Positions 30,869 to 52,106 of a DNA stretch of 64,000 bases are shown here, in pieces. Source of the DNA: Myxococcales bacterium (GTDB lineage Bacteria > Myxococcota_A > Polyangia > Polyangiales > Houyiibacteriaceae). A model generated the notes under the pieces. The model worked only from the letters and a program-made list of their open reading frames with translations, did no database searches and was not told the origin of the DNA. The stretch covers positions 1-64,000 of the forward strand of contig JAOTVB010000014.1 of the NCBI GenBank assembly GCA_029863605.1, written 5' to 3'. Position 1 is the first letter of the stretch, and each line of letters begins with the position of its first letter. Both the position numbers and the translations under genes were made by a program.

Positions 30869-32443
30869 ATGCTTCGCTTCGTGCGTGTCTTTCTCTCAGG
30901 CCCCATGGGGGCTGGCAAATCCACCGTGGCTGGAGCGGTCGCGGACCGGCTCGGAACCACTGCGATCGATCTCGACGAGCGGGTCGAGGCCCTTGCAGAG
31001 AAGACGATTCCACAAATCTTTGCCGAGCAGGGGGAGGGGGCCTTTCGAGCGCTCGAGAAGCGTGCTCTCGCCGAGCTGTCGGCGGATGTTGGGGTGGTAG
31101 CGCTCGGGGGCGGGACGACCGTCGACGACGACACGCGGCAGTCGCTTCTGCAGGCTGGGATCCTCGTCACGCTCACGGCGAGCCCATCGACGCTTGCAGA
31201 GCGCATCGGGGCAGGGACGAGTCGCCCACTCCTAGGGGCCGACCCCGAGGCCGACCTCGCGCGCATCATCGAGGCGAGGGCGCCTGCATACGCCGAGGCG
31301 CATGCCGTGATCGACACCGAAGCTTTCAATCTCGACCGGATTGCGGCTGAGGTCGTGGCGGTGCGCGATCGGGCGCCGATCGTAGTCCCACTAGGGCTCC
31401 GCACCTATCGGGTCGAAGTTGGCCGAGGCGTCCGTCACCGGGTCGGGAGCCGCGCGGTCGAGCATGCTGCGGGGGATGCGATCTTGGTTTTTGATGGCGA
31501 CGAAGACCGTGGGTGGCCCAAGGAGGCGATAGACGACCTCACCGCGGTCGGCAAGCCTCCGATCGAGGTGCAGCTTCCGGGTGACGAAGTCAGCAAGAAC
31601 ATCGTGAGCGTCGAGAAAATTTGGGACACGGCCCTCGAGGCGGAGGTCGATCGTCGCGCGATCGTCATTGGAGTCGGCGGAGGCGTGATCGGAGATCTCG
31701 CGGCATTCGCGGCCTCGACACTCCTTCGTGGCGTGGCCCTCGGGCAAGTTCCGACGACGCTCCTGTCGATGGTGGACAGCTCCGTGGGAGGCAAGACCGG
31801 ATTCAACCGCGCGCGAGGGAAGAACCTCATCGGCACATTCTACCAGCCGAAGTTCGTGCTCTGCGACATCGACACCTTGTCGACACTCCCTACCGAGGAA
31901 CGGACATCAGGGCTCGCCGAGGTGGTGAAGAGCGCGTGGCTCGATTCGGAGGAGTCGGTGGCGATGCTCGAGCGAGACGCAGACGCCTTGCTCGAGGGCG
32001 ACCCAGACGCGACGATTCGTGCGGTTCGGATGTCCGTGATGCTCAAGTCGCGGATCGTTCACCAAGACGAGCGTGAAGCGGGCCGCCGCATGTTGCTCAA
32101 CCTCGGTCACACGGTGTGCCATGGGCTCGAGGCCGCGAGCGACTACCAAGGGCTGCGCCACGGCGAGGGCGTCGCGCTTGGGATGATCGCGGCGATGCGG
32201 GTCGCCGCGAAGCTCAAGGGAGGGCGCGCGCAAGAGACCGAAAGGCTCAGCGAGCTGCTTCGGCGACTGGGCCTCCCGATCGACCTCGATCGGAGGCTCG
32301 ATGAGCGGGTGCTCGGGTTCATCGGCTCCGATAAAAAGCGCCGAGGGACCCAAATTCACTTCGTAATTCCCAGGCTTCCCGGCCAAACCGAGATCGCGAT
32401 CATCGGCCTCGATGAGGTCCGAAACGCGCTTCGCCAAGGCTAG
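30869..32443 (+). CDS. aroKB: Fused shikimate kinase / 3-dehydroquinate synthase
   Basis: A 524-residue bifunctional shikimate-pathway protein. Residues 1-165 are shikimate kinase: Walker A GPMGAGKST at 11-19, DLDERVE, the FRALEKRAL segment with the substrate arginine, and ALGGGT. Residues from about 175 are 3-dehydroquinate synthase: LPGDEVSKN, VGVGGGVIGDLAAFAAST, PTTLLSMVDSSVGGKTGFN and NLGHTVCHGLEAAS with metal-binding histidines. The reactions are steps five and two of aromatic synthesis. In many bacteria aroK and aroB are separate, adjacent genes downstream of pilQ; here they are one frame with no stop between. Confidence 0.95.
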   Translation: MLRFVRVFLSGPMGAGKSTVAGAVADRLGTTAIDLDERVEALAEKTIPQIFAEQGEGAFRALEKRALAELSADVGVVALGGGTTVDDDTRQSLLQAGILVTLTASPSTLAERIGAGTSRPLLGADPEADLARIIEARAPAYAEAHAVIDTEAFNLDRIAAEVVAVRDRAPIVVPLGLRTYRVEVGRGVRHRVGSRAVEHAAGDAILVFDGDEDRGWPKEAIDDLTAVGKPPIEVQLPGDEVSKNIVSVEKIWDTALEAEVDRRAIVIGVGGGVIGDLAAFAASTLLRGVALGQVPTTLLSMVDSSVGGKTGFNRARGKNLIGTFYQPKFVLCDIDTLSTLPTEERTSGLAEVVKSAWLDSEESVAMLERDADALLEGDPDATIRAVRMSVMLKSRIVHQDEREAGRRMLLNLGHTVCHGLEAASDYQGLRHGEGVALGMIAAMRVAAKLKGGRAQETERLSELLRRLGLPIDLDRRLDERVLGFIGSDKKRRGTQIHFVIPRLPGQTEIAIIGLDEVRNALRQG

Positions 32444-32508: not shown

Positions 32509-33243
32509 ATGCATCGATTCATCATCGTGGCTTTCGCGGTTCTGACGGTTGCGAGCTGCAACCGATTCCCGCACAACGGACTGCAAATTGGCGGCATGCT
32601 GCCCCTCGAGGAAAACTGTTCGCTCGATCCGTCCACCGACGAGAGACAGACGCGGGGGCTTTGGGACGTTGCAGCGCCGTTTGGGGACTTTCCACGAACC
32701 CCGCGCTTCGTGGTGTCGCCGCTTTTCGAGAGTTACATCATCAGCCGAGCGACCGATATCCAGGCCGAACAAAACAATCTTCAGGTCACCAATCTCGAGG
32801 TCACGCTCCAGACCCCAGATGGCGCCACTCTGGTTCTTCCAGAAACATTGCCCAATCCCTATCGTGTCACCGCGAGTGCAAACCTAGAGGTCGCACTCGA
32901 CGGATCGTTTAGCAGCAGCGCGACGTTCTCGATCGCGATTCCATCGTCGTATCGACAGGCCGTGGCGGACGCCGTATTCGGGGCTGGCTTCAACGAGATG
33001 ATCGTCATCATCCAGGCAATTGGGACGACGATGGGGGGCTTCACACAGAAGTCCGCGCCGTTCTTGTGGCCGGTCGACCTGTGCATCGGGTGTATGGACC
33101 TGTGCCCGACACAAGCAGATGCCGATAACCTAAGCGACTTGGGCCTCGAAGGCCTGTTGAGCTCGTGCCTGCCGGGTCAAGACGGGTACCTGTATTGTCA
33201 GTACGAGATACCGCCGCCCCCGGACCCGATGGCGACTCCCTAG
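32509..33243 (+). CDS. Lipoprotein of unknown function
   Basis: A 244-residue protein with a lipobox (FAVLTVASC) near residue 17, probably anchored at the outer membrane. The body is beta-rich (NLEVTLQTPDGATLVL, NLEVALDGSFSSSATFSIAIP) and the end has several cysteines (DLCIGCMDLCPTQ, LLSSCLPGQDGYLYCQYE) that could form disulfides. A GGAGGGG ribosome-binding site supports the ATG at 32509 over an in-frame start 54 bases upstream. Its stop overlaps the stop of the convergent sppA gene (CTAG at 33240-33243). No family recognised. Confidence 0.75.
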   Translation: MHRFIIVAFAVLTVASCNRFPHNGLQIGGMLPLEENCSLDPSTDERQTRGLWDVAAPFGDFPRTPRFVVSPLFESYIISRATDIQAEQNNLQVTNLEVTLQTPDGATLVLPETLPNPYRVTASANLEVALDGSFSSSATFSIAIPSSYRQAVADAVFGAGFNEMIVIIQAIGTTMGGFTQKSAPFLWPVDLCIGCMDLCPTQADADNLSDLGLEGLLSSCLPGQDGYLYCQYEIPPPPDPMATP

Positions 33244-35003
33244 CGGAGCGAAAAGAAGAACGGCGGCACGAGCGCGACGTGCTCCTGGCCGAGGACGACG
33301 AGGGCGTCTCGCCAGGTTTCCAGGGGCAGCCACGGCTCGAGGCGCGTGTGCTTTCGAAGCCAGAGCTCGGTCAGCAAGCCCACCTCATCGTCGCCATTCT
33401 CGCCGAAAATCTCGTTGATCGCGTCGAGGATCCCCTTTGATGAGGGCCAAACCTCGACCTCGGAATCGGGGCCGAGGCCGCCCCCGGCGCGCGCCTTGGC
33501 GAGTGCGTCGCTCAGACCTGCCATCTCGTCCACGAGCCCGAGCACCCGAGCGTCCTGAGCGGTCAGTACGCGCCCCTCAGCGGCCGCGAGCACTTTGTCG
33601 CGCTCCATCTCGCGACCCTCGGCGACGCGTGCGATGAAGCGGTCGTAGGTGTCCCGGAGAAGCGCTTCGAAGGCTTGGCGCTCGGTGGGGGTGAGCCCGC
33701 GAACCGGGGTGGACCATGCGGCACGCTTGCCGCGCTGAAGCACGAAGGTGTTGACGCCGAGCTCGGTGGCGAGGCCCTCGAAGTTGAATTTGCCTCCGAC
33801 CACCCCGATGGAACCGACGAGGCTGTCGGGGTGCGCCAGGATCTCGTTTGCTGCCGAGGCGATGTAGTACCCGCCGCTTGCAGCCATGTCGCCGACGCTG
33901 GCGATGAGGGGCTTGGACTCGGCGACTTGGTGCGCAGCTTGCCACATACGATCGCTCGCAAGCGCAGAGCCGCCTGGCGAGTTGATCCGTAGCACCACTG
34001 CTTTGACATTGTCGTCCTTGGCGAGGCGCTCCATCTCGCGGATGAAGGGTCCCGAGGCCGCGTCGCCCATGGTCGTGCGTTCGGCCTCGACGATGTTACC
34101 CGTGACAAAAACCAGCGCGACGCGCTCGCCGCCCGCGGAAGGTTCGTCGTGGTGACCGCTCAGCAAGTCCAGGAACTGTCCCACGGTCAGCTTGTCCTGC
34201 TGCGGGACCATCCGCATACGTCGTACTGTATCGACGCTTGCAGCCTTCTTGATCTCTTCGCGAGCAGCGCCAAGGAACTCGACGGAATCGATCAGCCCAG
34301 CCTCGGCTGCGGCCGAAGAGACATAGGGGCCGGCGTCGATCAAGGCTTTCGCTTTGTCGGTGTCGCCGTCGACGCGTTTTGATGTCGCGGCAACCAACGA
34401 GCCGTACAGGTCATCGAGGATCGCGTCCATCGATTCTTTGGCTTCTGGCGGCATGTCGTCCCGGATGAACATGTCGCCCGCGCCCTTGTAGCGACCCATG
34501 TGAAGGATCTCGGCTTGCACGCCGATCTTTTCTAGAAACGAACGCGCATAGATCATCACGGCGGCAGGGCCGACCAAGTCGAGGACGCCCGCGGGAGACA
34601 TGCTGATGCGGTCGCAAGCTGAGGCGAGAAGCAAGTACGCGACGTTATCCGCCGTCTCCAGATGGCAGTGAACCGGTCGCGCCTCGCCACGGAAGCGATC
34701 CAGCGCCTCGGTGAGGTCGCCAACGCTTCCCCATGCTCCACCCAGTGGGCCGATGCGCACCAGCAGGCCGCGGACATTCTCGTCGTCAGACGCTTTCCAG
34801 ACTTGTTGAAGGATGTCGTGGAGGGTGGGCCGCGGTCTCGAAAAGGGGTCGTGCTCGGCACCGTCGACGTAGGGTTGCAGGATCCGAAGCTCGCGAACCT
34901 CGGCTTTGTCGGCGTCGGTTTCAGAGCGATCGCAGGAGGCGGCACCCAGCACAAACAGGGCGAGAGAAACACAGAGAGCGAGCTGGCGCGATATTGGATT
35001 CAT
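33240..35003 (-). CDS. sppA: Signal peptide peptidase SppA, 67K type
   Basis: A 587-residue serine protease of the S49 family with both halves of the long (E. coli-like) form. The catalytic lysine is Lys173 in MGRYKGAGD in the N-terminal half, and the nucleophile is Ser376 in GDMAASGGYYIAS in the C-terminal half. Both are intact. The N terminus is a signal peptide with a lipobox-like LGAASC, unlike the plain membrane anchor of E. coli SppA, so it may be a lipoprotein. SppA degrades leftover signal peptides in the membrane. Its start overlaps the stop of the upstream zinc-ribbon/TPR gene (ATGA), so the two are co-translated. Confidence 0.92.
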   Translation of the reverse strand: MNPISRQLALCVSLALFVLGAASCDRSETDADKAEVRELRILQPYVDGAEHDPFSRPRPTLHDILQQVWKASDDENVRGLLVRIGPLGGAWGSVGDLTEALDRFRGEARPVHCHLETADNVAYLLLASACDRISMSPAGVLDLVGPAAVMIYARSFLEKIGVQAEILHMGRYKGAGDMFIRDDMPPEAKESMDAILDDLYGSLVAATSKRVDGDTDKAKALIDAGPYVSSAAAEAGLIDSVEFLGAAREEIKKAASVDTVRRMRMVPQQDKLTVGQFLDLLSGHHDEPSAGGERVALVFVTGNIVEAERTTMGDAASGPFIREMERLAKDDNVKAVVLRINSPGGSALASDRMWQAAHQVAESKPLIASVGDMAASGGYYIASAANEILAHPDSLVGSIGVVGGKFNFEGLATELGVNTFVLQRGKRAAWSTPVRGLTPTERQAFEALLRDTYDRFIARVAEGREMERDKVLAAAEGRVLTAQDARVLGLVDEMAGLSDALAKARAGGGLGPDSEVEVWPSSKGILDAINEIFGENGDDEVGLLTELWLRKHTRLEPWLPLETWRDALVVLGQEHVALVPPFFFSLR

Positions 35004-37402
35004 GGTGGTGTTGCTTCCGACTCCTGCGTAGGCGCGCCCGGGCCCTGTGGCTCCTGCTGCGGTTCGGGGTCCGGTTTGGGTTTGGGCTCCGCGGAGGGTT
35101 CGGGCTCGCTCTCGGAGTCGCTCTCGGGGAGCTTCACCCGCGGGTCCAGTTTCTTGATCGCGGCTCGGGCGGCCGCGACATGAGTGCCGGACGGACGCCT
35201 CTTCAAGTAAGTGTAATACGCGGAAACCGCCTCATCAGTCTTTCCGAGGCGCTCGTAGCCGCGGCCGAGATTGTAGTAGCCGTCAGGGTGGCCTCGCTGC
35301 GCGGCGCTTCTGAAGTAGCGCAGCGAAAGCTCGTAGTCGCCGGAGGCGAACGCCACGCGCCCGAGCGCATCGGTCGCGTCGCCGGAGCCCGGGCGAGCTT
35401 CGAGAGCGCTCTCGAAAAGGGCGCGTGCTTTGAGATAGTCACCCCCGGCGAGCGAAGCCTCGCCCTCCCGCATGTACCAACCGAAATCCCGAAGCGGCGG
35501 CCGCCCGTCGATGAACGCGTCGGACCCCGCAGCTTCGGCGAGGCGATCATACTCGTCATACTCGGGCCGCGTGCGAGAACGAGCCGCCCGCCTCCCGTTC
35601 TCGGCACGCCCCGTCGCACCCACAGCCTCTGCGGCAGTCGCTTCTCGAGCCTCTTTCTCGACCGCTTTCTCCGCCACAACCCCCGCCAGTGCCTCCGTCT
35701 CCGTCCCTGTCGCTGTCCCAGCGTCTGCCGCCGCCGCCGCTGCCTCTGTCCCAGCCTCTGCCTCTGCCCCCGCGTCTGCGGCGGCCCCAGCATCCACCAC
35801 CACCACCGCCACCTTTTCGAGCTGGCCAAGCAGCGCGATGGCAGCCGGGTGGCTCGGGTTGATCGCGAGGGCCGCCTCGACCTCGCTGCGCGCGCGACCA
35901 GTCGCGCCAGACGCAAGCTCGGCTCTGGCACGCAGCAATCTGTAGCGAATCCCCTCGGGCGCCCGCTCGGCGGCCTGTACGGCGCTTACGAGCCCTGCGT
36001 CTAGCTTGCCGTCGTGCTCCGCAGCCTGAAGGAGGGAATCGATCCGGGAAAACTCTGCAGTGCGGCTGAACGGCATGAGCCGAGCCTTCTCGAGCGACTC
36101 GCGGGCGCGTTTGGTGTCACCACTCAGGCGCAACGCATCGGCCTCCACAAGTCTGGCGTCTAGCCCTTTGGCGTCGAACATCAGCGCTTGCTCGGCGTGT
36201 TTGAGGGCTGCCTTCGCGTGAGCTTCGCGAGAAGGCCCGTCGTCGCCAGCTCCTGCGCCGTCGTCCATCGCCTGGGCGGCGAGTGCATGTGCCCGCGCCA
36301 AGAGGATCAGGAGTTGAGCGTCTTCGCCGCCGCGGGCCTCAATCGCGCGATCATAGGATGCGATCGCGCTTTGGTAGGCTTCGAGGTGGTCGGCTGCGAG
36401 GGCCGAGTCGCCCTCTTCGATCGCTGCCTCTGCTTCTTCGGCAGAAGAGCCAAAACCGAGAATGTCGGCGACCTGCTGCCATCGCGTCGCCATCAGCGCA
36501 AGGCCTCCTATCAACACGAGGAGCACGAGCCACCGCGCTGGTGACCATCCACGACCTGGGAGCTCGGGGATGTCCTCATCATCCTCGTAATACCCCGGGG
36601 GCGGGGTGCTCCGACGCCGGGAGCTGCTCGGCTCTTCGAACACCGCATCTTCGATGTCGCCTTCCGATGAGGGCGCGGGCCTTTCGGGAAGGGTGAACGA
36701 GCTGCTTTCCGGATCGACTGGCGGCATCGACGCGTCGCCGGCATCGGGAAGCCGCAGAGAGTCGGACGCATCTGCCGGAGCGGGCGCGCTTTCGCTCTCG
36801 GTCTCGGGAAGCCGCACCGAGTCCGCCGTGTAAACATTGCGGCTCACGGGCCCGGGAACCTCCACGGGGGTGGTGACGTACTCATCGCCCTTCTCGCGGT
36901 CCGTGTTGCGCCCACCGCTGGATGCAGGGGTTGCCGGGGCGACCGGCTTGGGGACCGGCACGACGCCGAGGAGGGTGGGTTGCCTCATCCGCCTCCCCGG
37001 CGGCAGGCTCGAGTCGGAAGTCGATCCGGTCGGCGCAGGGGGCACCGGAGAGGGGATGTCGGTTCGTTCTCCGGCGCCCGCAGCGTGGAAGAAAGTCTCG
37101 AGCTCGGGGATCGCGCCGAGTGGCTTGAAATCCTCGTCGCCGCGTGAGATCTGGTCGTCGGGGGTAAGCTCACCCGAACCGATCCGCCGTTGAAGCTCCC
37201 TCAGGGTGTCGATCGTATCGACCAACCCGTCCGATCGCAGCAGTCGCCAAGTGCTCGTCGATCGGTCAGGGTCTTCCTGCGCCTTTGGATAGACCTTGAA
37301 GACGTGACCGCAGTTGGTGCACTTCACGCTCGTTCCGCGTCCCGAAAGGAGCGTTTCGTCGAACTCGTACTCAGTGCCGCAGCGCTCGCAAGTAACGTCC
37401 AT
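35000..37402 (-). CDS. Zinc-ribbon / GYF / TM / TPR membrane protein
   Basis: An 800-residue protein with a composite layout. Residues 1-40 form an MJ0042-type zinc ribbon (CERCGTEYEF and CTNCGHVF, two CxxC pairs). Residues about 50-108 look like a GYF_2/DUF4339 domain (WRLLRSDGLVDTIDTLRELQRRI). A long Pro/Ser/acid-rich linker follows to about 285, then one membrane helix (ARWLVLLVLIGGLALMA). The rest, presumably periplasmic, has TPR repeats, interrupted by an Ala/Glu/Gly-rich low-complexity insert (about residues 530-590) and ended by more TPRs (YYNLGRGYERLGKTDEAVSAYYTYL) and a Pro/Glu tail. The N-terminal half resembles the gliding-motility protein GltJ/AgmX; the C-terminal half does not. 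It is coupled to sppA. Function unknown. Confidence 0.8.
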   Translation of the reverse strand: MDVTCERCGTEYEFDETLLSGRGTSVKCTNCGHVFKVYPKAQEDPDRSTSTWRLLRSDGLVDTIDTLRELQRRIGSGELTPDDQISRGDEDFKPLGAIPELETFFHAAGAGERTDIPSPVPPAPTGSTSDSSLPPGRRMRQPTLLGVVPVPKPVAPATPASSGGRNTDREKGDEYVTTPVEVPGPVSRNVYTADSVRLPETESESAPAPADASDSLRLPDAGDASMPPVDPESSSFTLPERPAPSSEGDIEDAVFEEPSSSRRRSTPPPGYYEDDEDIPELPGRGWSPARWLVLLVLIGGLALMATRWQQVADILGFGSSAEEAEAAIEEGDSALAADHLEAYQSAIASYDRAIEARGGEDAQLLILLARAHALAAQAMDDGAGAGDDGPSREAHAKAALKHAEQALMFDAKGLDARLVEADALRLSGDTKRARESLEKARLMPFSRTAEFSRIDSLLQAAEHDGKLDAGLVSAVQAAERAPEGIRYRLLRARAELASGATGRARSEVEAALAINPSHPAAIALLGQLEKVAVVVVDAGAAADAGAEAEAGTEAAAAAADAGTATGTETEALAGVVAEKAVEKEAREATAAEAVGATGRAENGRRAARSRTRPEYDEYDRLAEAAGSDAFIDGRPPLRDFGWYMREGEASLAGGDYLKARALFESALEARPGSGDATDALGRVAFASGDYELSLRYFRSAAQRGHPDGYYNLGRGYERLGKTDEAVSAYYTYLKRRPSGTHVAAARAAIKKLDPRVKLPESDSESEPEPSAEPKPKPDPEPQQEPQGPGAPTQESEATPP
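35713..35762. repeat. Imperfect tandem repeat in the low-complexity insert
   Basis: CTGTCCCAGCGTCTGCC (35713-35729) recurs as CTGTCCCAGCCTCTGCC (35746-35762) with 33-base spacing and one mismatch. They sit within a wider pyrimidine-rich GCC/TCT/GTC tract (about 35680-35815) that encodes the Ala/Glu/Gly-rich insert on the other strand. The period is a multiple of three, so copy-number change would keep the frame. Confidence 0.6.
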
Positions 37403-38194: not shown

Positions 38195-38833
38195 ATGACG
38201 GTTCACTCGGTTACAGACGCAACGTTCGAAGCAGAAGTCATCCGGTCCGAGCTTCCGGTTCTCGTGGACCTCTACGCGGATTGGTGCCAGCCCTGTAAGC
38301 AGCTTTCACCGATTGTTGCGCAGGTCGCCGAAGAGCTCGCCGGCAAAATCAAGGCCGTCAAGGTCGATGTCGATAGCAATCCCATGGTCGCACAGACCTT
38401 CCGTGCCCAATCGATTCCGATGTTGCTCGTCCTTCATCAGGGCAGGGTGGTCCAACACCACGTTGGCGTGCTCGACAAGCCTGGGCTGCTCCGCCTGCTC
38501 GAGCCCGTGATGCCACGATCAGCTGCCGAAGTGCGTGCGGAAGAGCTGGCTGCATGGCTAGCGCAAGGCAAAGCGCTGCCCGTGGACATTCGCGACGATG
38601 CATCGTACCGACGCTATCGAATTCCGAATGCGATCAACATCCCCGCCAAAGAGCTCGCAGGCCGCGCGGAGGAGCTTCAGCCCTTCGACGGTCGCATTCG
38701 CGTGCTCTACGGACGAAGTGACGAGGCCAAAGAGTGGAGCGAGAAGCTGCAGGCGGACGGAGTGCAAGTTGGCTTTCTTTCTGGCGGGTTTCTCCATTGG
38801 GAAGCCGACGGGCTCGACGTGGAGCGCGATTGA
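38195..38833 (+). CDS. Thioredoxin fused to a rhodanese-like domain lacking the catalytic cysteine
   Basis: A 212-residue fusion. Residues 1-105 are a thioredoxin fold with the redox motif WCQPC (usual form WCGPC) and the cis-proline context SIPMLLVLHQG. Residues about 118-210 are a rhodanese fold (LPVDIRDDASYRRYRIPNAINIP, then GGFLHWEADGL). The loop that normally carries the catalytic cysteine (CRSG type) reads VLYGRSDEAK, so the cysteine is replaced by glycine and sulfurtransfer is unlikely. The second half may bind rather than catalyse. No signal peptide, so cytosolic. It follows deoC immediately and overlaps the next small gene. Confidence 0.88.
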   Translation: MTVHSVTDATFEAEVIRSELPVLVDLYADWCQPCKQLSPIVAQVAEELAGKIKAVKVDVDSNPMVAQTFRAQSIPMLLVLHQGRVVQHHVGVLDKPGLLRLLEPVMPRSAAEVRAEELAAWLAQGKALPVDIRDDASYRRYRIPNAINIPAKELAGRAEELQPFDGRIRVLYGRSDEAKEWSEKLQADGVQVGFLSGGFLHWEADGLDVERD

Positions 38834-46778: not shown

Positions 46779-49700
46779 ATGCAGCGCACCAAGTTACGCG
46801 GCGCCCGTACGCACAATCTTCGCTCCATCGACCTCGATATCGACCCAGGCACCTATCTGGCGATCGTGGGGCCTTCGGGGGCAGGGAAGTCCTCGCTTGC
46901 GTTCCGCACGCTTTACGCCGAGGGACAGCGGCGTTACGTTGAGAGCTTCAGCGCGTATGCGAGGCAGTTCCTCGAACGGCTCTCGCGTCCACCAGTCGAC
47001 GAGCTCGACCCAGTCCCCGTTGGGATCGCCGTGGACCGCCAAGCCCCGGTTCGGACGAGTCGTTCGACCGTCGGCACGATGACCGAGATCGCCGACTACG
47101 CGAAGCACCTTTGGGCTCACGCAGCCGAGCTACATTGCCCGACGTGCGACACGATCGTCCATCGGGATGCCCCGACGCGCGCCGCCCAAACGGTCATGAA
47201 GGAGCTGGCGGGTAAGAAGCTTCTGGTAACTTACCCCGTCGCCGTGGCCGACAAGGAGCACTTTCTGGGCGTTCGGGAAGCCCTCTTGCGGGACGGGTAT
47301 CGCCGCGTCCGAGTGAAAGGCAAAGTGAGCGATCTCGACGAGGTCAGGCCTAGTGACGTCACCAATGGACGGAGCAGCACCCTCGACGTCGTCGCGGACC
47401 GCACCGTCGCCCGGGAGCGAGATCACAGTCGGCTCGTCGAGGCGATCGAGATGGCCATGAAGCGGGGGACCGGCCGCGCCAGCGTGTGGACGGCCACCGG
47501 CGAGGAGCTCGGATTTTCGGAGGGGCTCCATTGCCCCACCTGCGACCGTTCCTTTCGACGGGCGACGCCTGGGTTGTTCAGCTTCAACAGCCCCATTGGG
47601 GCCTGCGAAACCTGCCGCGGGTTCGGCCGCACGATCGAGATCGACCTCGACCGCGTGATCCCCGACTACGATCTCTCCGTGGAGGACGGTGCGATTCGAG
47701 CTTGGCAGGGCAAGGCGACCACCTGGGAGCGCAAGGAGCTGCGCAAGCAAGCCAAGAAGGCTGGTGTGCCTCTGGGGGTTCCGCTCCGGGACTGGAACCC
47801 GACCCAGATCGCGTGGTTGATCGACGGGGACGAGCTTGGATACCCGAAGGGATGGTGGGGAATTCGAAGTTGGTTCCGTTGGATGGAGTCGCGCGCGTAC
47901 AAGATGCACGTCCGTGTGTTTCTTTCTCGGTATCGAAAGTACGAGACCTGCAAAGACTGCGATGGGACACGGTTGAAGCCCGAGGCACTAGCGTGGCGGA
48001 TCGACGACCTGAGCTTGCCTGACCTCTACGCACTTTCCGCATCGAACGCGCTTGCGTTTCTACAGCGCCAGGATAAGCGATTCGAGGGAGATGCGGGGGC
48101 GGCCCTCTTGTGGCGTGAGGCGATCGGGCGACTGAGCGCGCTTCACGAAGTCGGCCTCGGGTACCTGTCTCTCGATCGCACATCGAGGACGCTATCGGGC
48201 GGGGAGACGCAACGCGTCGCGCTGACGAGCGCTCTTGGGGCGACCCTCAACGGCGCGATGTTCGTCCTGGACGAGCCGACGGTGGGGCTCCATCCACGGG
48301 ACGTCGAACGGCTGCTTGGCGTGGTGCGCGCGCTCGCGAAAGACGAGAACGTCGCCGTCGTGGTGGAGCACGACCCCGAGATGATCCTCGGCGCCGATCG
48401 CGTGGTCGAGCTCGGGCCCGGTGCGGGTGAGAACGGGGGCGAGATCGTATTCGATGGAACGCCTGCAGCGCTCCGACGCGCCAAAACCGCGACCGGAGCG
48501 GCTCTGAAGCTCAACGGATCCATCGTGCGGGCGCGCCGTGAGCCCAAAGGTTGGCTCGAGCTGAAGGACGCCTCGGGGCACAACTTGCGCGGTGTTGACG
48601 TCTCGTTTCCGCTCGGGGTCATGACGTGCGTCACAGGCGTCAGCGGGTCGGGCAAGAGCAGCCTCGTTCTCGAGACTCTGCTCCCCGCGCTTCAAAGGCT
48701 GCTTGGCGTCAAGTCCGAGCAGGCAGCACTCGAGCACGCGACGCTGACCGGCTTCGAATCGCTTAAGGGCGTCGTCGGCGTGGATCAGGCGCCGCTTGGA
48801 CGGACCTCGCGCGGCAATGCCGCAACCTATCTCAAGATCTGGGATATCTTTCGCAAGCGCTTCGCCGCCCAATCCATCGCTAAGCAAAGGGACTACAAGC
48901 CCGGGTTCTTCTCGTTCAATGTCGAAGGCGGCCGTTGCGAGGCATGTCGAGGCGATGGTGCCGAAACCGTGGAGATGCAGTTCCTGGCGGACGTCGTCTT
49001 CTCGTGCCCCGAATGCGGCGGGAAGCGGTTCGCCGGGCCGGTTCTCGATATCGAGTACAGGGGGCTCAATGTCGCGCAGGTGCTGCAGCTGACCGCACAG
49101 GAGGCCGCCAAGCGCTACGCCGACGACCCGTCGATCCAACGTGGCCTGTCGCCGCTTCTCGACGTCGGTCTCGGCTACCTTCGGCTCGGCCAGCCCTTAA
49201 ACACGCTGTCTGGGGGCGAAGCGCAACGCCTCAAGCTCGCAGAGGCGCTCCTCCGGGCATCACCTGGCTCTCTTCTGATCTGTGACGAGCCTACCGCCGG
49301 TCTTCACGCCAACGACGTTCAGCCGCTGGTTCGCGTGCTCGATGGGCTCGTCGAGCGGGGGGACACCGTGATCGTGGTCGAGCACGACATGCAGATCGCG
49401 GCACACGCCGACTACGTCATCGACCTCGGGCCCGGCGCCGGGGCGGAGGGAGGGTGCATCGTGGCGATTGGCGTCCCTGAAACGGTCGCCAAGCGCAAGG
49501 GTTCGCAGACTGCCCCGTATCTGGCGCGGGCGATCGGCGGCAAGCCTCCGACGAAGTCGAGGCACCGCCGTAAGAAGGCGAGTCTCGTGCGCAGCCAGGA
49601 CCAGAAGATAAAGATCGTCGGCGCCCGGGAGCACAATCTCAAGAACGTGAACGTTCAGATCCCACGCGACCAACTCGTGGTGCTCACGGGACCGAGTGGA

Positions 49701-52106
49701 AGCGGCAAGAGCACCCTGGCGTTCGACGTTTTGTTCGCGGAGGGTCAGCGGCGCTATCTCGAAACGCTCTCACCCTACGCGCGGCAGTACATGCCTCAGC
49801 TCCCGCGCCCGTCGGTCGATCAAGTGCTTGGTGTTCCACCGAGTGTGTCGCTCGAGCAGCGCCTGACCCGGGCAGGTGCCAACTCGACCGTGGCCACGGT
49901 GACCGAGGTTTCGCACTATCTGCGGCTCATCTGGGCCCGTATAGGCGTGCTGCACTGCGTCGACTGCAAGGTGCCGATCTCGGCACGTCCCGTGTCTGAG
50001 CTCGTCCGCGATGTCCGCAAAGCGTTCGCCGGCAGGACTATCACGATCCTGGCGCCCGTCGTGCGCGGTCGAAAGGGGATTCATCGTGAGCTTCTCGCCA
50101 AGGCGCAGCGGGACGGTTTCACCGAGGCGCGGATCGACGGTCAGCTCGAGACCCTAGAGCCGGGTATGAAGGTCGACCGCTACATCGAGCACGACATCGA
50201 GCTGGTGGTCGGCAAGACGCGGGTCAAAAGCCCTGAGCTATTAGAGCTTCTCGATCGTGCATTAACCTTCGGGAATGGTGCCGCATGGGTCCTCGCTGGA
50301 GACCAACAGATGCAGCTTTCCAGCAAGCAGGCTTGCCCGAGCTGCGGACGCGGCTACCCGGAGCTCGATCCGCGTTTCTTTTCGTTCAATACCCGCCAAG
50401 GGCAGTGTCCGGAATGCGAAGGCCGCGGGGAGATCGTTAAAAAGAAGTGGCGTGGCCGGCGTCGGAAGCGGGCGGAAGAGCGCCGCTTGTGCGACGTTTG
50501 TGACCAGACGCGCCTTTCCCCGCTGGCGCGTGGGGTCACGGTTGATGACATGTCGATCACGTCTCTTTTCGACCAGAGCGTGTCCGAGGCGATGCAGACC
50601 GTTCGGGCCATGCGCCTCGGCGGACGCGACTCCACCATCGCCCATACGCCACTGCAGGAAGCCCTCCGCCGGCTGACGTTTCTCGAAGAGGTCGGCCTCG
50701 GTTATCTTGGACTTGGGCGTGCAGCCAACACGTTGAGCGGCGGTGAAATGCAGCGTGTTCGACTGGCCGCACAGCTTGGAAGTGGGCTGACCGGCGTCTT
50801 GTACGTGTTGGACGAGCCTACCATCGGGCTTCATCCCCGCGATACAGGGCAACTGCTAGGGGCGTTGCGGGGGCTCGTAGAACGAGGGAACTCCGTCCTA
50901 GTGGTCGAGCACGATGCCGACACGATCCGTGCTGCCGACCACGTAATCGATATTGGGCCAGGAGGCGGCAAGCATGGCGGGAGAGTGGTTTCGCAGGGGT
51001 CGCTCGCAGAGATGAAGGACTCGGTCACCGCGGCAGCACTCGCCCGGCCACCGAGGATTCCGGTGTCCCGACGTTCCACCAAAGAGGTCTCATGGCTCAC
51101 GCTTTCCGGGGTTGCTCACCACAACTTGAAGAGCATCGACGTCCGTTTTCCGCTGGACCGTTTCGTCGCGGTCACCGGCGTAAGCGGGTCCGGCAAGAGC
51201 TCTCTCATCCGGGAGGTGCTCCTTCGAGCGACGCGTGATGCGGTTGGCCTCGTCAACGACTCGCCGGCTGGTCCATTTCGGCGGATCGACGGCTTCGAGC
51301 GGCTCAACCGCGCCATCGAGGTCGACCAAAGCCCGATCGGACGCACACCGCGCTCGGTGCCCGCCACGTATATCGGGATTTGGAACCTAGTGCGTAGGCT
51401 CCTAGCGGGAACTCCCGAGGCTCGGGCTCGAGGATACGGCCCGAGCCGGTTTTCGTTCAACGTGGAGGAAGGCCGATGTCCCGAGTGTAAAGGGCAGGGT
51501 TCGATTCTCGTCGAGATGGCCTTTCTACCCGACGTCGGCGTTCCCTGCGAGACCTGCAATGGCTTTCGATTTACCCCGGAAACCCTGGAAGTGAGATGGC
51601 AGGGGTTGAACGCGGGGGAGCTTCTCGATCTCGAGGTGACTGAAGCAGTCGACGTGTTTGCCCCTGTGAAAGCGATCCGAGAGCCTTTGAAGTTGCTGGT
51701 GGATCTGGGGCTCGGTTACCTCCATCTAGGTCAAGCTTCAAACACGCTAAGCGGCGGGGAAGCGCAGCGCATCAAGCTGGTGTCCGAGCTTGCGACCGGA
51801 CTGAACACGGGCCCGACCCTCTACGTCATGGACGAGCCCACGACCGGCCTTCACCGGGACGATGTAGACCGATTGCTCGGCGTCCTCCTGCGCCTCGTGG
51901 ACCGAGGCGACACGGTCATCGTCATCGAGCACCACCCCGACGTGATGCTCGCCGCAGATTGGGTGATCGACCTCGGCCCCGAGGGCGGTGCCGGCGGCGG
52001 CCGGGTCGTCGCACAAGGCACCCCCGAAACGATCGCCAAACGAAAGCGCAGCCACACCGGCCACGTCCTGAGGCGCGAACTTCAATCTAGCGCGTGCTCT
52101 TCGTGA
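46779..52106 (+). CDS. uvrA: Tandem (double-length) UvrA excinuclease subunit
   Basis: A 1775-residue protein made of two complete UvrA units. Unit 1 (residues 1 to about 935) has P-loops at Gly31 and Gly620; unit 2 (about 940-1775) at Gly971 and Gly1467. Four ABC signature motifs ([36 protein letters not shown]) and four Walker B motifs ([36 protein letters not shown]) are intact, as are the four Cys4 zinc modules (CPTC with CETC, CEAC with CPEC, CPSC with CPEC, CPEC with CETC). UvrA normally dimerises to find bulky DNA lesions and load UvrB; here the dimer is covalent, as known in Chlamydia. The first half of unit 2 is about 90 residues shorter between its P-loops than that of unit 1. The start is ATG at 46779. 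Confidence 0.97.

Follow-up and report, generated by a model that had tools for sequence, protein, structure and literature searches.

Is a membrane protein with a front end like that of a gliding protein part of a motility machine, or does it serve the peptidase whose gene it overlaps? This question is raised by an 800-aa protein encoded upstream of sppA in a window of 64,000 nucleotides (the whole stretch of DNA analysed) from a Myxococcales bacterium. We therefore examined its domains, their resemblance to the gliding protein GltJ, the persistence of its link with sppA in relatives, and what these suggest about its role.

Domain architecture

The gene occupies positions 35000..37402 of the minus strand, including the stop codon, and is open without interruption for 800 aa. 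Its N-terminus is an MJ0042-type zinc ribbon (residues 1-40, 37283..37402) which matches Zn_ribbon_4 over residues 1-36 with an E-value of 1.5e-14 (Pfam, 54 bits vs a cut-off of 30.3) and whose closest fold is the zinc finger of ZitP (2nb9, Z 6.1 by VIA for residues 1-48). The original prediction of two CxxC pairs was confirmed as C5/C8 and C28/C31, and these pairs are invariant among relatives.

The claim of a GYF_2-like domain required structural evidence, as residues 50-108 (37079..37255) score only 17.2-21.5 bits against GYF_2 (PF14237), below the gathering cut-off of 25.8, though 30 of 39 orthologues have matches at E<=0.1 (best 2.9e-6). We modelled the head in AlphaFold2 using 39 orthologous heads, obtaining a pLDDT of 76 overall and about 80 over the GYF part. 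The top Foldseek matches of this model were the ZitP zinc finger and a series of GYF domains including that of GltJ. For residues 49-107 the matches included the GYF domains of GIGYF2, Smy2 and GltJ; Foldseek gave probabilities of 0.96-1.0 to GYF domains and VIA returned moderate values (Z 5.7 to the GltJ GYF domain, 7z3c, and 5.2 to GIGYF2, 7rup). Despite these moderate Z-scores, the consistency of the structural matches and the recurrence of weak sequence matches mean that a divergent GYF fold is well supported by the model. The GP motif was absent from all 90 distinct family sequences inspected (0/90). This motif forms part of the PPG-binding pocket of GYF domains and hence the domain cannot be presumed to bind proline-rich PPG peptides.

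A Pro/Ser-rich linker follows (residues 109-285, 36548..37078), which is predicted from its composition to be disordered and which is poorly conserved among relatives save for short motifs. One of these, TLLGV (residues 143-147, 36962..36976), conforms to a family pattern, T[LM]xG[VMI], that recurs in 37 of the 84 linkers (mean after shuffling, 0.33), a contrast that is inflated by the kinship of the sequences. The motif is possibly a site for binding of a partner; in the variable linkers of relatives it is often preceded by basic residues. The single membrane helix of the original prediction lies at residues 288-306 (36485..36541) and is the sole hydrophobic helix. Of 84 relatives, 58 have more positive charge N-terminal to this helix and 5 have more C-terminal to it, a bias that places the ribbon in the cytosol and the C-terminal half in the periplasm by prediction.

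This C-terminal half consists of TPRs, as had been claimed, and not of a TonB-C domain, with AlphaFold2, VIA and Pfam in agreement. Modelling with 75 orthologous periplasmic halves refined the claim from one array to two separate domains, mostly with pLDDT >90, divided by a disordered stretch of ~75 residues, and the Pfam TPR matches likewise fall into two groups. Domain A (residues 320-540, 35783..36445) has a VIA Z of 19.0 to the TPR protein 2pl2 and domain B (residues 640-757, 35132..35485) has Z values of 16-18 to TPR domains. The intervening Ala/Glu-rich linker (residues 541-615, 35558..35782) has a pLDDT <50 over most of its length. It opens, just past domain A, with a conserved DAG (residues 543-545, 35768-35776; D543 82%, G545 81%).

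Domain A contains three conserved polar residues, D422 (84%), R425 (95%) and R486 (84%). With G428 and G499 set as TPR position 15, these residues occupy positions 9, 12 and 2, respectively. In textbook numbering, these consensus positions point into the ligand groove. We infer that the three residues face the groove of domain A, and such conservation makes a specific TPR ligand likely. Overall, the protein is predicted to be a bitopic inner-membrane protein with a cytosolic zinc ribbon-GYF head and a periplasmic TPR arm. Defence-system models gave no match, and DUF3426 was not matched in the Pfam search of the protein.

Comparison with GltJ and ZitP

The original prediction likened this front end to that of GltJ/AgmX of Myxococcus gliding (NF033761). 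The GltJ zinc ribbon binds MglA, and cytosolic motifs of GltJ have reportedly been found to bind MglA-GTP and AglZ; our literature search on the GYF domain of GltJ gave nothing useful. Part of the likeness stands, for both proteins have an N-terminal MJ0042 zinc ribbon, a GYF domain, a disordered linker, one transmembrane helix and a periplasmic C-terminal domain, in that order, and in addition to the fold match to 7z3c there is a sequence match between the ribbon and that of GltJ (7zok, E 6e-6). A specific relationship with GltJ is not supported. With the curated GltJ model (NCBIfam, cut-off 450 bits) the protein scores 14.4 bits, the match covering residues 1-48 alone, and in a tree of heads all GltJ types sit on one branch with 100/100 support while the family of the 800-aa protein lies outside. 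Ribbon position 35 is phenylalanine in 117 of 117 family sequences, whereas eleven GltJ-type proteins have isoleucine or leucine. GltJ types also have a canonical GYF_2 domain with the GP motif, often farther from the ribbon, and a C-terminus that is TonB-like by inspection. Membership of GltJ was thus rejected on the model score, the residue at position 35 and the separate branch: the front end is built from parts of the GltJ kind, yet it is not a GltJ head.

These comparisons bear on whether the protein is a GltJ-type component of gliding or focal adhesions, with a head recognizing MglA along with other motility factors of the cytosol and a TPR arm in place of the TonB-like arm. The shared order of parts and the matches to GltJ structures point in this direction, as do the presence in the same genome of one MglA-like protein and two GltJ-type proteins and the occurrence of TPR proteins in the Glt machinery (PMC3169522). 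We nevertheless regard this explanation as improbable given the differences in branch, position 35 and GP motif, the very low score with the GltJ model and the coupling of the gene to sppA. Moreover, the genome is already supplied with GltJ-type proteins, both of which have stronger GYF_2 domains. The broader implication is that the zinc ribbon-GYF membrane head of a gliding protein is a module reused in Myxococcota, where at least one more family, itself widely conserved, carries it on proteins ending in TPRs.

The best fold match, ZitP of Caulobacter (ZnR-TM-DUF3426), is likewise bitopic and has a ribbon with C5/C8/C28/C31 and an aromatic residue at position 35. It differs in having W35, a DUF3426 C-terminus and no GYF domain, as opposed to F35, TPRs and a GYF domain. 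The ZitP ribbon is a proven protein-binding tag for polar localization in which W35, stacked on the zinc site, is required for binding of PopZ, the equivalent residue in AgmX being isoleucine (PMC5182065). This precedent also bears on a further explanation, a zinc- or redox-sensing regulator in which detection of metal or stress by the ribbon would be relayed across the membrane to TPRs controlling proteolysis. Invariant CxxC pairs and a bitopic layout would suit such a regulator, but the zinc of the related ZitP is structural and its ribbon binds protein (PMC5182065), and no sensor output domain was found in the Pfam search of the 800-aa protein. We consider a sensor very improbable.

Another zinc-ribbon protein of the same genome (G000:C28:53458, L167), read in a 1198-aa frame, has a linker, a transmembrane helix and a helical C-terminus without a GYF domain.

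Coupling to sppA

The downstream gene (33240..35003, minus strand) encodes a 587-aa SppA-type serine peptidase with K173/S346 and a predicted lipoprotein cysteine, Cys24. It matches Peptidase_S49 with an E-value of 4.4e-65 (Pfam) and exceeds the cut-offs of SppA_dom (242 bits) and TIGR00706, falling just under that of TIGR00705 (285.9 vs 311.45). It shares the two S49 domains and the Lys and Ser of catalysis with SppA of the 67K type. Whereas that type is anchored by a transmembrane segment, this peptidase is predicted to be a lipoprotein, and its gene is paired with that of a putative TPR scaffold.

Translational coupling of the two genes had been claimed and is borne out by a 4-base overlap, ATGA at 35000-35003 (35000..35003, minus strand), in which the stop of the 800-aa gene overlies the sppA start. 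Comparison of neighbourhoods in relatives showed that this coupling is conserved. Among 74 usable loci of the same order, meaning those where the gene is complete and the sequence extends far enough downstream, 52 have sppA as the next downstream gene on the same strand, mostly with a -4 overlap. In the loci of Polyangiaceae, Sorangium, Polyangium and Labilithrix, sppA alone was retained and the other ten window neighbours tested were lost. The pair also occurs in one genome from another order of the class (L212). The catalytic Lys is present in all 52 partner peptidases and the Ser in 51. Their N-termini fit a strict lipobox pattern in 31 of 52 cases, and most of the others have, by eye, a hydrophobic stretch ending in Cys. 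The partner is therefore predicted from sequence to be a lipoprotein in most cases, and such an N-terminus should put SppA in the same compartment as the TPRs.

A different picture emerges from loci without an adjacent sppA. The groove residues are conserved equally in these loci (R425 in 23 of 24) and the searched genomes that lack the adjacent gene still encode SppA homologues elsewhere, so the ligand of the TPRs may be something other than SppA. A protein of ~1500-1900 aa is encoded downstream in many of these loci, often overlapping or a few bases away (e.g. L042:8596-14001, L054:8065-12999, L056:7657-12999, L063:7369-12681 and L098:8329-13542). This protein has almost no Pfam match, apart from a weak TPR match in one instance, and is another candidate for a partner of the family. 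A search for it in the genome of the window gave only a weak match in a TPR-like frame, and the 1775-aa ORF at 46779..52106, considered as a counterpart, gave no match.

The same genome has a second SppA homologue (G000:C21:6513-7766) with 31% identity to the SppA of the window, near the MglA-like gene on contig C21.

Distribution of the family

Full-length homologues were detected in the genus, family and order in a search of 57 related genomes, and in a collection of named organisms including Sandaracinaceae, Polyangiaceae, Sorangium cellulosum, Polyangium fumosum and Labilithrix. In these relatives the cysteine ribbon is always followed by the GYF-like domain, the variable linker, a single hydrophobic helix and the TPRs, and occurrence of this layout in dozens of genomes excludes a chance assembly. 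A search with a profile of the head extended the family, with the same order of parts, to other classes of Myxococcota but gave no match in most members of one sampled genome family (f20). Family members beyond the class are not adjoined by sppA, and at two loci the gene adjoins unrelated housekeeping genes.

At seven loci outside the class (L203, L204, L206, L208, L209, L210 and L215) the gene adjoins one for a second zinc-ribbon protein, which in some loci is itself GYF-like with a transmembrane helix and TPRs. In L204 and L206, genes read by eye as resembling gatC/gatA, mtnA and rplU lie nearby.

Proposed role

Pairing of the genes suggests that the 800-aa protein and SppA have a joint role in the envelope, as the original prediction had proposed. 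Our preferred reading, held tentatively, is that the protein is an inner-membrane scaffold that delivers lipoprotein SppA, or the substrates of SppA, to sites that the head selects. By analogy with ZitP-PopZ and GltJ-MglA, the cytosolic head would bind a protein ligand that dictates the site or timing of accumulation of the 800-aa protein, and the long linker would provide reach between head and arm. The periplasmic TPR grooves may then keep SppA, the substrates of SppA or some other envelope partner close to the inner membrane, gene coupling would supply scaffold and peptidase in matched amounts, and SppA could remove signal peptides or fragments of membrane proteins at defined places. We count in favour of this scaffold the frequency of the pairing, its recurrence in another order, the survival of sppA alone through decay of gene order, the predicted sharing of a compartment by the TPRs and an SppA that keeps its catalytic residues, and the conservation of D422, R425 and R486; the fit of the ribbon to the ZitP localization tag favours a head that localizes. 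Against it we count the coupling of a large protein instead in many loci without sppA, the housekeeping neighbours outside the class and the possibility that gene coupling reflects dosage alone. A stricter version, in which the protein acts as a transmembrane subunit dedicated to positioning lipoprotein SppA, the head reading a location cue and the TPR arm recruiting the peptidase for spatially controlled clearance of signal peptides, seems unlikely.

Nearly as likely as the SppA scaffold is a general scaffold for envelope assembly, whose main TPR ligand would be a partner found throughout the phylum and for which pairing with sppA would be a lineage-specific unit of co-expression. The spread of the family beyond the class without sppA alongside, conservation of the groove whether or not sppA adjoins, the existence of an alternative coupled partner and the tandem arrangement of other members with further zinc-ribbon genes are all consistent with this explanation, but it leaves unexplained why, across the order, sppA alone survives the decay of gene order.

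If the SppA link is true, then SppA has a genetically coupled partner able to localize or regulate it. We know of no described SppA partner with the zinc ribbon-GYF-TM-TPR architecture, and a full-text literature search on SppA in Myxococcota returned nothing.

Other features of the window

Three further genes were observed in the window. The 1775-aa product of 46779..52106 (plus strand) reads as a UvrA-type protein, by eye two UvrA units head to tail; 30869..32443 encodes a probable AroK-AroB fusion, also by eye; and 38195..38833 encodes a thioredoxin-rhodanese fusion (Pfam).
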